The notes under the pieces are model-generated. The model made no database searches, was not told the DNA's origin, and saw nothing but the letters and a program-made list of their open reading frames with translations. A DNA stretch of 23,757 nt, from positions 1 through 23,757 of the IMG/VR virus record IMGVR_UViG_3300034418_008868; one strand, given 5' to 3'. How positions within the stretch are numbered: the first letter of the stretch is position 1; each line of letters starts with the position of its first letter. The position numbers and the translations under genes were made by a program. The stretch is from a virus. Below, in pieces: positions 972 through 22,971 of this stretch.

Positions 972-1166
972 ATGAAAGATAAAAAGATAAAGATGACTAA
1001 GATTAAATTCACTGGTGTAGCGATTGGATCATTTATCATGGCGTACATGACAATGATGGGTTACGGTTCATATATGTTCAATGATTCATTAGGAGAGATG
1101 TTTGTGTTTTTGATTTTTGGTGTTGTGGGATGTGCAGGTACATTTTTGGCTTTCTCAACAAAGTAA
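972..1166 (+). CDS. Small two-helix membrane protein, 64 aa
   Basis: The frame is open from 762, but the promoter at 936-966 and the shared MKDKK start place the real start at 972 (or at the ATG at 993 after an A-rich leader). The protein has two hydrophobic segments, about residues 13-30 (GVAIGSFIMAYMTMMGYG) and 43-61 (MFVFLIFGVVGCAGTFLAF), with a short charged connector. It is probably a small inner-membrane protein. No family is recognised. Small phage membrane proteins can act in superinfection exclusion or host takeover, but nothing here shows this. The promoter of the next gene lies inside its last codons. Confidence 0.65.
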   Translation: MKDKKIKMTKIKFTGVAIGSFIMAYMTMMGYGSYMFNDSLGEMFVFLIFGVVGCAGTFLAFSTK

Positions 1167-1175
1167 ATTATATTA
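1145..1175 (+). promoter_or_regulatory. Bacteroidetes-type promoter before 1183
   Basis: TTTGGC (1145-1150), 17 bases, then TTATATTA (1168-1175). The -33 element and most of the spacer are inside the 3' end of the 972 gene. The ATG at 1183 is 8 bases after the -7 element. Confidence 0.75.
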
Positions 1176-1485: not shown

Positions 1486-1509
1486 ATTATCCGTATAAAG
1501 AGATAATTT
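1484..1509 (+). terminator. Hairpin overlapping stop codon and next promoter
   Basis: AAATTATC (1484-1491) pairs perfectly with GATAATTT (1502-1509) around a 10-base loop. The left arm overlaps the TAA of the 1183 gene and the right arm ends in the TTT of the next -33 element. Only three T follow, so termination is uncertain. Confidence 0.35.
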
Positions 1510-1537
1510 GGCATCACACGACAAGATAATTATATTA
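1507..1537 (+). promoter_or_regulatory. Bacteroidetes-type promoter before 1566
   Basis: TTTGGC (1507-1512), 17 bases, then TTATATTA (1530-1537). The following bases (AAGAAAGATAAGAAA) match the 5' coding bases of the 595 gene, but here the corresponding ATG is missing. This segment is therefore an A-rich 5' leader. Confidence 0.75.
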
Positions 1538-1670: not shown

Positions 1671-1701
1671 TTTGGCAGTACAGAAAGATTTAGTTATATT
1701 A
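1671..1701 (+). promoter_or_regulatory. Bacteroidetes-type promoter before 1742
   Basis: TTTGGC (1671-1676) begins on the base after the preceding stop codon. A 17-base spacer and TTATATTA (1694-1701) follow. The leader to the ATG at 1742 is about 35 bases of A-rich sequence without a Shine-Dalgarno site. Confidence 0.78.
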
Positions 1702-1741: not shown

Positions 1742-2035
1742 ATGACAAAGAAAGTAAAAAACACAATCGAGGTAATTCAGGTAAACACAATCTCTAAAAA
1801 TGGTAAGCGTTTAGGTCGCCCCGCGAATGCAAATAGTCGCCGTCAACAGACATTGGCTTTGAAAGCTGAAATGAGAGAAAAAGGATTGATTAAGCGTGGT
1901 CGTCCAGTTGATCCAACTAGTAAAAAACAAATGCGTGAACAAGCACGTCTTGAGTTTTTAGCTAATGGTGGTGTAATTAAGCGTGGTCGTCCCAAAATGG
2001 TTAAGACTGAAGTTGAAGCCGAAGCAAAAGGTTAA
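1742..2035 (+). CDS. Three-AT-hook DNA-binding protein, 97 aa
   Basis: The protein is strongly basic and has three AT-hook cores (GRP at residues 25-27, 53-55 and 82-84), each preceded by Lys/Arg. AT-hooks insert into the minor groove of AT-rich DNA, so this product probably binds phage or host DNA with low sequence specificity. The hooks lie in a repeat of about 29 residues: each hook is followed by S-basic-basic-Q and a charged helix, and the second and third are preceded by G(L/V)IKR. A 17-base direct repeat at 1889-1905 and 1976-1992 underlies hooks two and three, which points to duplication. It has its own promoter and an A-rich leader. Nucleoid-like compaction, transcription modulation or protection of DNA are possible roles. 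Homology beyond the hooks is not recognised. Confidence 0.75.
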   Translation: MTKKVKNTIEVIQVNTISKNGKRLGRPANANSRRQQTLALKAEMREKGLIKRGRPVDPTSKKQMREQARLEFLANGGVIKRGRPKMVKTEVEAEAKG

Positions 2036-2101: not shown

Positions 2102-2350
2102 ATGAGTGAATATAGTAATTTGATTGAGTTTCTACGTGACATGCGTGATGCGTTGAATGAACTAGCCGAGGATGCAGAATCCGAGTTGCGTGACATGGAT
2201 AATTTGGATTTGTCCGAGGACGTGTATAAGTCGGTTGTCTCTAAAATCGATGTGGCTCTTAATGGATGTGATGAATTAATCGATGAGCTAGAGGCAGGAT
2301 CTTATGACCGTGAAGATCTTTTTGAAGAAGAAGATTTTGATGATCTTTAG
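2102..2350 (+). CDS. Very acidic small protein, 82 aa
   Basis: About 29 of 82 residues are Asp or Glu and only about six are Lys or Arg. The acidic residues are spread along predicted helices (LIEFLRDMRDALNELAED, then SKIDVALNGCDELIDELEAG) and end in EEEDFDDL. Small, very acidic phage proteins are sometimes DNA mimics that block nucleases, restriction enzymes or DNA-binding proteins. That is a possibility here, not a homology call. No strong promoter of the TTTGGC type precedes it; an ATATTTAGTA element 10-20 bases upstream resembles the TATTTATA motif. It may also be read through from the AT-hook gene. A large hairpin begins 11 bases after its stop. Confidence 0.65.
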   Translation: MSEYSNLIEFLRDMRDALNELAEDAESELRDMDNLDLSEDVYKSVVSKIDVALNGCDELIDELEAGSYDREDLFEEEDFDDL

Positions 2351-3707: not shown

Positions 3708-3738
3708 TAATATAATAAAATTTACCCTAAGAGCCAAA
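3708..3738 (-). promoter_or_regulatory. Bacteroidetes-type promoter of the minus-strand operon
   Basis: On the minus strand TTTGGC (3738-3733), 17 bases and TTATATTA (3715-3708) reproduce the plus-strand cassette exactly. It drives the four genes 3698 to 2619. The ATG starts 10 bases after the -7 element. Confidence 0.78.
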
Positions 3739-4767: not shown

Positions 4768-4798
4768 TTTGGCTCTCTAATTCCTCTTTATTATATTA
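4768..4798 (+). promoter_or_regulatory. Bacteroidetes-type promoter before 4806
   Basis: TTTGGC (4768-4773), 17 bases, then TTATATTA (4791-4798). The ATG at 4806 is 8 bases after the -7 element. It probably drives the HD gene, the 5584 gene and gp55. Confidence 0.78.
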
Positions 4799-5583: not shown

Positions 5584-5865
5584 ATGACATTTACAATAAT
5601 AACCATACTAAATGTATCTCTTTGGGTTTTATCCATTGGTGGTTATATGGTATGGAACTTACTAAAGAAAAACGAGAAATTAGAAAATATTGTTAACCAA
5701 CAGCAGATGTTGATTCAAGAAATTTCTCAAACAATTGAAGAATCTGCTAAATACCTTAAAGAAATTGATAAACGTGGTTCATTCTCATCTGATGATGAAA
5801 TTGGATGGTTCTTTAAAGGTGTTAAAGAGATCCAATCAACATTAAACCAATTTATTATTAAATAA
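5584..5865 (+). CDS. Membrane-anchored coiled-coil protein, 93 aa
   Basis: Residues 3-26 form a membrane helix (ITILNVSLWVLSIGGYMVWN). They are followed by a coiled coil (EKLENIVNQQQMLIQEISQT) and a C-terminal segment with DDEIGWFFKGVKEIQSTLNQF. A similar arrangement, with a DEIG-FF-type C-terminal motif, is familiar from small conserved proteins of T4-like cyanophages. Its function there is not established as far as I know. Its stop overlaps the gp55 start codon (TAATG), so the two are translationally coupled. Confidence 0.7.
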   Translation: MTFTIITILNVSLWVLSIGGYMVWNLLKKNEKLENIVNQQQMLIQEISQTIEESAKYLKEIDKRGSFSSDDEIGWFFKGVKEIQSTLNQFIIK

Positions 5866-6626
5866 TGGAAGTTGCGGTATTACCTGAATTGGATGTCCCT
5901 ACAGTAGAACTCACTAAAAAGGGTACTGTACGTAAACGTAAACCTAAAAAGAAAAATACCTATTTTACTCAAGAAACAGAAGATGCTATTGTTAAATGGG
6001 CTAAAACAACTGATCAAGTTGAAAAAGATAGACTTTTTTCTGAACAGATTTATCACCCATTTTTCAAATTAACCGAAAATATTATTCATACTTTTAAGTA
6101 TTATTATACTGAAGTTGATACTATTAAAGAATTGCAACATGAAGTTATTATTTTCTTATTAGAAAAAATGCACATGTATGATCAATCTAAAGGTAAAGCA
6201 TATTCTTACTTTGGTACTATAGCTAAACGTTATTTAATTCTTTCTAATCAGGCTATATATAAGAAAATTAAAAATAAAGCTGAAGTAGAAGAGGTAGATG
6301 AAGACAATACAATCTATAATGATTTAGTAGCTGAAGCTGACCCAACTGGTCCAGCTGAGTTTATGGATTTGTTTTGTGATTTTATGGACAAGTATATTTA
6401 CCATTATTTTCCTAAACAAAAAGACGCTCAAGTAGCTGATTCAATTGTTGAGTTATTTAGAAAAAGAGAAAATATAGATATATTCAATAAAAAAGCATTA
6501 TACATCTATATTAGAGAAATGACTGACTCTACAACACCTCAAATTACTCGTATTATTAAACGTTTAAAAGTAGTTTATAAAGATCAATACGATAATTATT
6601 ATAACTATGGATATTTAAAACATTAG
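5865..6626 (+). CDS. gp55: Late-transcription sigma factor, T4 gp55-like, 253 aa
   Basis: gp55 replaces the host sigma factor on RNA polymerase and directs it to late promoters, working with the sliding clamp. Residues 69-130 show the reduced sigma region 2: LTENIIHTFKYYY, ELQHEVIIFLLEKM and KAYSYFGTIAKRYLI, the last a hallmark of T4-like phage gp55. The protein is longer than T4 gp55 (185 aa): it has a basic N-terminal extension (KKGTVRKRKPKKK, 19-31) and a long C-terminal part ending in a tyrosine-rich tail. The clamp-binding C-terminus cannot be verified by eye. The gene is expressed with the HD and 5584 genes from the 4768 promoter, which fits production before late structural genes. Confidence 0.82.
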   Translation: MEVAVLPELDVPTVELTKKGTVRKRKPKKKNTYFTQETEDAIVKWAKTTDQVEKDRLFSEQIYHPFFKLTENIIHTFKYYYTEVDTIKELQHEVIIFLLEKMHMYDQSKGKAYSYFGTIAKRYLILSNQAIYKKIKNKAEVEEVDEDNTIYNDLVAEADPTGPAEFMDLFCDFMDKYIYHYFPKQKDAQVADSIVELFRKRENIDIFNKKALYIYIREMTDSTTPQITRIIKRLKVVYKDQYDNYYNYGYLKH

Positions 6627-21592: not shown

Positions 21593-22546
21593 ATGGCTTA
21601 TACTTCATGGAAAAGATTAAATGTAAGTGATGTTTTTGCTGTACCTTATACAGCAAACAAATATTATCTTATAGCAGGATCCAACTTTGAAGATAATCAA
21701 ATTACAATTAATGTTGGTACACAAAATACAGGATTTATTTATCCTTTAGAAGGTTACAAAACAAATAATCAATTTGATTACTTAGTTTATAGAAGTATCC
21801 AAACTAGATACTATCCTGATTTTTATAATCAATCTCATTCAACAGGATCTTTTAAACAAACAACTTATTTAGATGGTACTCAAGTAGGAACTTACTATAC
21901 AGGTGGATTTATTAATCCTGGAAATTTATTATCAACAACAAAATATTTTCCAACATCATCTAATGATACTATTTTAGTTATTAATACACCTAAAAATTTA
22001 ATAGGAACCAAAATAACCCCAGGTACTTTTAAAATAACTATTAATAGTGGTTCTATATATGATGATGGACAATATAATTTACTATGGAGTGGATCAAATG
22101 TTGGATCATCAATAGGAACAACATTATCTCAATCATCTTATGTTGGTAATATATTTTATGAACAAGGTATTTCTGTATTAACAGTTATACCTGATTCATT
22201 AGCTCAAAATTATACAGTTGGTACTTTACCTACAAGAAGCTTATCAACTAATATAGATTATATTGAATTTAAAAATGATTATACAATTTATGAAAATTTT
22301 GTAAAATGTACAATTAAAGATTATGAATTTAATGCTAGTTATAACCCAACTATGTTAACAGGTAGTGTTACAGCTAGTAATGATACTTTATATGATTTTG
22401 CTACATCTTCATTATTTACACCATACGCTGGAGCTGTTGGTTTATATAATGATGCTCAAGAATTATTAGCTATAGCAAAATTTGCTACTCCAATCCCAAT
22501 TTCATCAAACACAGATACAACATTTTTAATAACATACGACACATAA
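21593..22546 (+). CDS. Virion protein sharing a C-terminal domain with 20549, 317 aa
   Basis: The N-terminus differs from its neighbour (YTSWKRLNVSDVFAVPYTAN, KYYLIAG), but the C-terminus aligns: TIKDYEFNASYNPT and AGAVGLYNDAQELLAIAKFA match RVKNSEYNFTSNPT and TAVGLYNDTGDLLAVAKLS. The two are therefore products of domain duplication with different N-terminal parts. It is beta-rich and without membrane segments, probably a tail appendage protein. It starts 6 bases after its partner and its stop overlaps the nuclease gene (TAATG). Confidence 0.6.
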   Translation: MAYTSWKRLNVSDVFAVPYTANKYYLIAGSNFEDNQITINVGTQNTGFIYPLEGYKTNNQFDYLVYRSIQTRYYPDFYNQSHSTGSFKQTTYLDGTQVGTYYTGGFINPGNLLSTTKYFPTSSNDTILVINTPKNLIGTKITPGTFKITINSGSIYDDGQYNLLWSGSNVGSSIGTTLSQSSYVGNIFYEQGISVLTVIPDSLAQNYTVGTLPTRSLSTNIDYIEFKNDYTIYENFVKCTIKDYEFNASYNPTMLTGSVTASNDTLYDFATSSLFTPYAGAVGLYNDAQELLAIAKFATPIPISSNTDTTFLITYDT

Positions 22547-22971
22547 TGACAGAGTGGTGGGTACATACAGAAAACTATGACCCAGCTGATTATTTAGGAT
22601 TCGTTTATATCATAAAAAATAAAAAAAGTGGACGAATTTACGTTGGTAAAAAAGTCTTTTGGAATAATACAAAAACCCGCTTAACCAAAAAAGAATTAGC
22701 TGAGCAGACTGGACCAGGGAGAAAATCTACTCATAAAGTAGTGACTAAAGAGTCCAATTGGAAATTTTATTGGGGAAGTTCAAAAGAACTTCTTGAAGAC
22801 ATAAAAGAATTAGGTACAGGAAGTTTTGAAAAGAAAATATTAAAACTTTGTAAAAATAAAAAAGAAATGACCTTTTTCGAAATGTATTATCAATGTCGAT
22901 ATGATGTATTGACAACTAATAGCTATAATGATAATATACTAGGTAAATTTTTTAGAAAAGATTTAGAGTAA
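22546..22971 (+). CDS. GIY-YIG endonuclease, 141 aa
   Basis: The GIY-YIG core is visible: GFVYII (18-23, the GIY strand) and IYVGKK (31-36, the YIG strand), then WKFYWGSS (72-79), and E112 in TFFEMYYQ as the likely metal-binding glutamate. The enzyme would cut DNA. It is a single domain without an obvious DNA-recognition module. It could be a freestanding homing endonuclease, but its TAATG coupling to a virion gene is unusual for a homing gene. Similar short proteins recur in T4-like phages, so a conserved role in DNA processing is possible. The next promoter begins just after its stop codon. Confidence 0.75.
   Translation: MTEWWVHTENYDPADYLGFVYIIKNKKSGRIYVGKKVFWNNTKTRLTKKELAEQTGPGRKSTHKVVTKESNWKFYWGSSKELLEDIKELGTGSFEKKILKLCKNKKEMTFFEMYYQCRYDVLTTNSYNDNILGKFFRKDLE

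Follow-up and report, generated by a model that had tools for sequence, protein, structure and literature searches.

AT-hooks have been studied mostly in eukaryotes. The motif is defined by a GRP core with basic flanks that addresses the minor groove of AT-rich DNA (PMC11354804). The eukaryotic architectural proteins HMGA1 and HMGA2 are small, basic and made of several GRP hooks joined by linkers, and the linker spacing is thought to set the AT sites that are reached (PMC11354804, PMC7279267). H-NS and Lsr2 contact the AT-rich minor groove in an AT-hook-like manner (PMC7074111), and MotB, a small DNA-binding protein made early by phage T4, changes the host nucleoid (PMC7827196, PMC6070864). 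The nearest published phage case is an AT-hook protein from a filamentous prophage of Cupriavidus, an unrelated phage type, which carries one RGR motif in its N-terminal region and for which a regulatory role has been postulated (PMC10011098). Searches of the open-access literature listed, to judge from the titles and abstract openings returned, no report of phage proteins with several AT-hooks of the type described below.

The window analysed here is a whole virus record of 23,757 bases with a GC content of 29.8%, which agrees with the AT-rich phage assumed in the first-pass annotation. Its long tail gene has counterparts at 23-31% identity in six annotated phage records, including four records of Flavobacterium phage immuto, its baseplate gene gives matches to baseplate wedge profiles, and the gene order from the phosphohydrolase to the baseplate is similar in immuto and in the window. 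These three features suggest that the window likely derives from a T4-like phage whose hosts would be Bacteroidetes. A SegE-type GIY-YIG homing endonuclease (99.4 bits) is encoded after the tail genes, at positions 22546-22971.

The gene of interest (Table 1) encodes the protein MTKKVKNTIEVIQVNTISKNGKRLGRPANANSRRQQTLALKAEMREKGLIKRGRPVDPTSKKQMREQARLEFLANGGVIKRGRPKMVKTEVEAEAKG, previously annotated as a 97-residue protein with three AT-hooks in units of about 29 residues and an underlying 17-base direct repeat. The three GRP cores are present, beginning at residues 25, 53 and 82, and the repeat ATTAAGCGTGGTCGTCC is exact in its two copies, which are spaced by 87 bases. The hook spacing (28 and 29 residues) fits the announced unit length, but the third unit is reduced to a hook and the short tail KMVKTEVEAEAKG; the layout of the protein is hook-helix-hook-helix-hook. 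Shuffling the protein 200,000 times at constant composition never gave three GRP cores (two cores in 89 shuffles), and hence they are not due to chance. The closest relative (locus L002) encodes a protein 86% identical, the two loci agree in every base over at least the last 36 positions ahead of the ATG, and the comparison of the two genes gives a dN of 0.075 and a dS of 0.757. The identity, the dN far below dS and the conserved bases before the ATG show that the gene is real, and the dN/dS ratio of about 0.10 points to purifying selection between these two sequences.

Table 1. Features of the hook gene, of the acidic gene that follows it and of the promoter-like elements (positions in the window; residues in the hook protein)
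Feature	Position	Strand	Remarks
TTTGGC-N18-TATATTA	1145-1175		shortly before an ATG
TTTGGC-N18-TATATTA	1507-1537		shortly before an ATG
TTTGGC-N18-TATATTA	1671-1701	+	promoter-like element before the hook gene; shortly before an ATG
Hook-repeat protein gene	1742-2035	+	ATG start, 97 aa, net charge +16
Hook 1 core GRP	1814-1822	+	KRLGRP, residues 25-27
Predicted linker helix 1	1838-1879	+	residues 33-46, right after invariant Ser32 (AlphaFold2)
17-base direct repeat, copy 1	1889-1905	+	codes IKRGRP
Hook 2 core GRP	1898-1906	+	KRGRP, residues 53-55
Predicted linker helix 2	1922-1963	+	residues 61-74, right after invariant Ser60 (AlphaFold2)
17-base direct repeat, copy 2	1976-1992	+	codes IKRGRP
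Hook 3 core GRP	1985-1993	+	KRGRPK, residues 82-84
Acidic gene	2102-2350	+	82 aa, net charge -23; directly after the hook gene, 66-base gap
TTTGGC-N18-TATATTA	3708-3738	-	shortly before an ATG
TTTGGC-N18-TATATTA	4768-4798		shortly before an ATG

Searches for relatives yielded a family that we name the hook family. A first scan recovered only L002 as a close relative, with a matching order of the surrounding genes. The neighbouring HD-domain gene, used as query, led to the locus L012, whose upstream region contains a four-hook version. Queries built from these finds reached 45 and 47 loci, some of them on the same contigs. After merging of the loci per contig, 83 proteins were retained at E<=0.001, from which we removed three sequences cut at the 5' end and four proteins of at least 185 aa that represent a different hook protein. 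The family is thus composed of 76 complete proteins from 71 viral contigs, five of which contain two hook-family genes each. Homologues with a variable number of hooks, whose search the first-pass annotation had proposed, do exist: four GRP cores are found in 33 proteins, three in 25, two in 17 and one in a single protein (L064). That annotation had considered that homologues without conserved GRP motifs would speak against the AT-hook reading; these were in general not seen, although four members (L063, L064, L095 and L106) show, by eye, GRK, GRH or GRR at the position of a core. The hook number is uniform within close clades and has changed at least three times on a tree that was built by a quick method from a neighbouring marker gene (44 rows, those without a complete hook gene being fragments and left uncounted). 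The net charge of the 64 distinct sequences ranges from +5 to +22, and the loci of all 76 proteins are AT-rich (GC 26-38%).

The repeated unit reads [K/Q][R/L]-GRP-x4-S-x-R-Q-x2-L. In the 136 internal units, which were anchored on GRP so that the conservation of this core holds by construction, the Ser at +7 is conserved in all 136, the Arg at +9 in 119, the Gln at +10 in 118 and the Leu at +13 in 100; on the N-terminal side of the core, Lys is found at -2 in 94 units and Arg at -1 in 85. The spacing between hooks is 28, 29 or 30 residues in 126 of these units. Internal cores are mostly followed by V, I, S, T or A, and the 64 last hooks by K (32) or A (25). An alignment of 22 members contains one conserved hook, whose G and R are invariant and whose P is kept in at least 90% of sequences. 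The AlphaFold2 model built with these 22 rows (mean pLDDT 75.9, pTM 0.35) places helices between extended hooks, with a pLDDT of about 87-92 in the blocks that hold helix 1; the protein is predicted to have two helices, no strands and no global fold. The invariant Ser may be a helix N-cap, since the predicted helices start right after it. Foldseek returned seven meaningless matches in the PDB (best E 4.1). A GRP-type minor-groove arm followed by a helix is also known from the DNA-binding domain of the Hin recombinase, which differs by a full helix-turn-helix and a single arm of this type.

The family as a whole has no significant match in Pfam, PHROGs, NCBIfam or the PDB. The GRP core of the Pfam family AT_hook (PF02178) occurs three times in the window protein, which scores 13.0 bits (E 0.097) against that model, below the curated cut-off of 17.4 bits; eight of 22 family members match it at E<=1, the best with an E of 5.3e-4. 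The window protein therefore resembles PF02178 and is not filed under it, and the family is uncatalogued, with AT_hook as its nearest known family. The best PHROGs profile has an E of 0.018, the best NCBIfam match (E 0.004, two of 22 members) is to a polymerase model, and the best PDB sequence match of the window protein (E 0.0099) covers one helix of designed-type repeat proteins. Pentatricopeptide repeat proteins, also matched in the PDB (E 0.01-0.06, residues 32-51), were rejected: a single short helix is concerned and the family profile recovers none of them. Four family proteins gave no match at E<=1 in annotated phages and a fifth gave one chance-level match (E 9), in BLAST searches whose low-complexity filter may hide such proteins. 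With the family profile, which recovered 21 of 28 viral records, the hook gene was not found in the complete genomes of Flavobacterium phage immuto and Mel-JY01; it is therefore accessory and not essential for the immuto-like phage type. It was not found either in seven relatives of the HD-domain gene, all fragments. Two scans of the genome contigs for bacterial or prophage relatives gave 27 and 18 pattern matches, none of which was confirmed.

The hook units and their 17-base repeat had been taken as the mark of a recent duplication of units. Unit-by-unit comparison of the DNA led us to reject this proposal for the window gene: units 2 and 3 are identical at only 32 of 69 nucleotides, including the 17-mer, whereas the units of the window and their positional counterparts in L002 are identical at 74/87, 73/87 and 42/60 nucleotides. 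As each window unit is closer to its L002 counterpart than to another window unit, the units are older than the split between these two genes. The 17-mer is not kept in L002, where the two copies differ from each other. Elsewhere in the family, seven loci were tried and four yielded comparable unit pairs; L099, where units 1 and 2 share 70 of 84 nucleotides, is the strongest example of a duplication of younger age.

The next gene downstream encodes an acidic protein, for which AlphaFold2 predicts a hairpin of two helices (residues 3-30 and 35-65; mean pLDDT 79.9, pTM 0.60). Among the loci collected, 17 contigs encode a relative of it, and a hook gene is located just upstream in 15 of them, a set that was partly found through the hook gene. 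A search from the acidic side, which gives a fairer figure, places the hook gene upstream in nine of 11 loci, several contigs being near-copies. The exceptions are the same in both counts: the contig L130 ends on the upstream side, and in L131 the upstream gene encodes a RecA/KaiC-like ATPase starting with MNTGKRRGRPKKD, hook-bearing by eye. Conversely, the acidic gene is present in only 15 of the 71 contigs that contain a complete hook gene. The acidic gene goes with low-valency hook arrays: it accompanies 13 of 17 two-hook proteins, two of 25 three-hook proteins and none of the 33 four-hook proteins, and behind many four-hook genes its place is taken by a gene for a basic protein of 50 aa. 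No relative was confirmed with the acidic sequence of the window as query, whereas the L070 version did find relatives, and BLAST, with a low-complexity filter that may hide such proteins, gave no match to the acidic protein in annotated phages.

The promoter-like element TTTGGC-N18-TATATTA has five matches in the window for 0.01 expected in shuffles, and identical boxes with equal spacing precede the hook gene of L002. The stretch from the hook gene to the acidic gene in the window contains no such element, so that the two genes are probably carried by one transcript. Some copies are situated just 8-10 bases before the ATG and would make nearly leaderless transcripts. Six copies of TATATTAYAGTATAAGAAAG (0.09 expected) were observed in a run of small genes at positions 230-1644 of L008, and the window has one exact copy at 1531-1550. 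A gene of 253 aa at positions 5865-6626 of the window, kept in many relatives, displays a weak similarity to sigma-70 region 2 (E 0.04) and is possibly a phage sigma factor. A/T-tract enrichment was considered as a sign of target sites and rejected, because none exists across the window beyond the dinucleotide content: TpA-free A/T runs of at least 5, 6 and 7 bases have z values of 0.0, -2.7 and -0.6 over the whole window, and of +2.8, -0.5 and -1.0 in bases 1-2500.

The repeat anatomy, its conservation, the variable hook number and the adjacency of the two genes come directly from the sequence work. On this basis we give about an even chance to a multivalent minor-groove binder that would remodel AT-rich DNA in infection and that would have an acidic partner in part of the phages. 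This reading draws on the GRP cores, the family with one to four of them, the conserved Ser and spacing, the helices predicted exactly between hooks, the basic charge, the purifying selection, the AT-rich loci, the acidic neighbour, the promoter-like element and the second, different four-hook protein of some of these phages, which scores above the AT_hook cut-off. Against it are counted the AT_hook score below the cut-off, the non-basic residue after internal cores, the lack of A/T-tract enrichment, the complete immuto genome in which the hook gene was not found and the absence of the acidic gene behind most hook genes. The hook protein would bind DNA, and multivalent binding would result from the AT-hook chemistry and the covalent repetition of hooks: the Ser-capped basic helices would act as spacers keeping adjacent hooks about 28-30 residues apart, and one molecule could grip two to four AT-rich sites simultaneously. 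Expression from its own promoter-like element would probably precede that of the late tail genes. Most likely, the protein would remodel AT-rich DNA of the host or of the phage as the cell is taken over, where it would compete with nucleoid proteins of the host or take their place and would change transcription. T4 MotB is the model for this nucleoid role and resembles the hook protein in the proposed role only, being a predicted KOW and OB fold, whereas hooks and helices alone are predicted here. In the part of the family with the acidic gene, the hairpin could bind the hook protein and hold it or strip it from DNA, as a hypothetical chaperone or antagonist. A more elaborate version, to which we attach only a limited probability, is a two-gene chromatin switch, in which valency would be adjusted by gain or loss of the 28-30-residue GRP-x4-S-x-R-Q unit and a dedicated co-transcribed hairpin would load or strip the array on AT-rich DNA, like HMGA with an acidic chaperone in phage form.

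The likeness to HMGA is proposed at the level of architecture only (PMC11354804, PMC7279267). The window protein has the three AT-hooks that are characteristic of HMGA and the family has one to four; the phage linkers differ in being predicted helices with a conserved S-x-R-Q, HMGA hooks usually have a basic residue after GRP, unlike the internal phage hooks, and the highly acidic C-terminal tail of HMGA is not in the window protein, only L110 having a long acidic-rich tail among the sequences read. As HMGA1 AT-hooks can bind structured RNA (PMC11354804), the basic charge of the family would also suit an RNA-binding protein whose basic helices possibly add RNA contacts, a reading that we regard as improbable given that no RNA family is matched in the window and no RNA-specific domain in the protein. 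Minor-groove contact with AT-rich DNA would be common to the hook protein and to H-NS, Lsr2 and MvaT (PMC7074111). The first-pass annotation had suggested that the protein could coat DNA or have a xenogeneic-silencer-like function, the latter taken here as a filament-forming silencer of AT-rich DNA; the AT-hook-like chemistry is in favour of such a silencer (PMC7074111), but H-NS and Lsr2 combine an N-terminal oligomerisation domain with a C-terminal AT-hook-like domain, whereas the hook protein has hooks along the whole chain, no predicted folded domain and no visible oligomerisation domain, its multivalency coming from repeats within one chain. There is no H-NS/Lsr2-type match in Pfam, no sequence in common was found, and the lack of bacterial or prophage relatives in the genome contigs scanned also makes this silencer an improbable reading.

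A sequence-selective transcription regulator, which would recognise spaced A/T tracts in certain promoters of the phage or host and not AT-rich DNA in general, would explain the fixed spacing of the units and the clade-stable hook number with its repeated changes, which suggest a tuned valency, and AT-rich promoter-like elements do recur in the window; the absence of a predicted major-groove or HTH domain and of an excess of A/T tracts over the window makes it an unlikely reading. A small, basic, multivalent protein could equally neutralise packaged DNA as a condensing or internal virion protein. We consider this quite doubtful, the gene being situated among small genes of unknown function, behind its own promoter-like element and with no recognised head genes adjoining, and being missing from the complete immuto genome according to our search. 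The preferred reading of a multivalent minor-groove binder makes the family a testable candidate for how AT-rich phages handle host nucleoid proteins, with the acidic partner as a possible control step. The natural two-, three- and four-hook versions at near-constant spacing also constitute a ready series for relating AT-hook valency and spacing to affinity and bridging.

Other hook-bearing proteins were met in the course of the searches. Small-terminase-like proteins (by eye) from the unrelated contigs L003-L005 have in common with the hook protein an ISKNGKRLGRP-like stretch (phmmer E 8e-5 to 2e-4); they were rejected as family members, since only this stretch is alike and none passes the family profiles at E<=0.001. 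The contigs L077, L078, L110, L113 and L119 encode a second AT-hook protein of about 190-220 aa, with an N-terminal domain and four C-terminal hooks, whose L077 copy matches Pfam AT_hook above the cut-off (27.6 bits). The four-hook members of L099, L101 and L104 carry an extra N-terminal domain of about 35-40 aa that is SAP-like by eye, although Pfam gave no match of this kind with L099 and L104. L066 (8825-9664), a phage that also has a two-hook protein, and L131 (1-813) encode a RecA/KaiC-like ATPase whose N-terminal part carries a basic GRP stretch; in L131 the label rests on the L066 relative. Finally, the two-hook protein of L110 (4935-5417) is prolonged at its C-terminus by a long segment that ends in an acidic stretch, as if the hook and acidic parts were fused.
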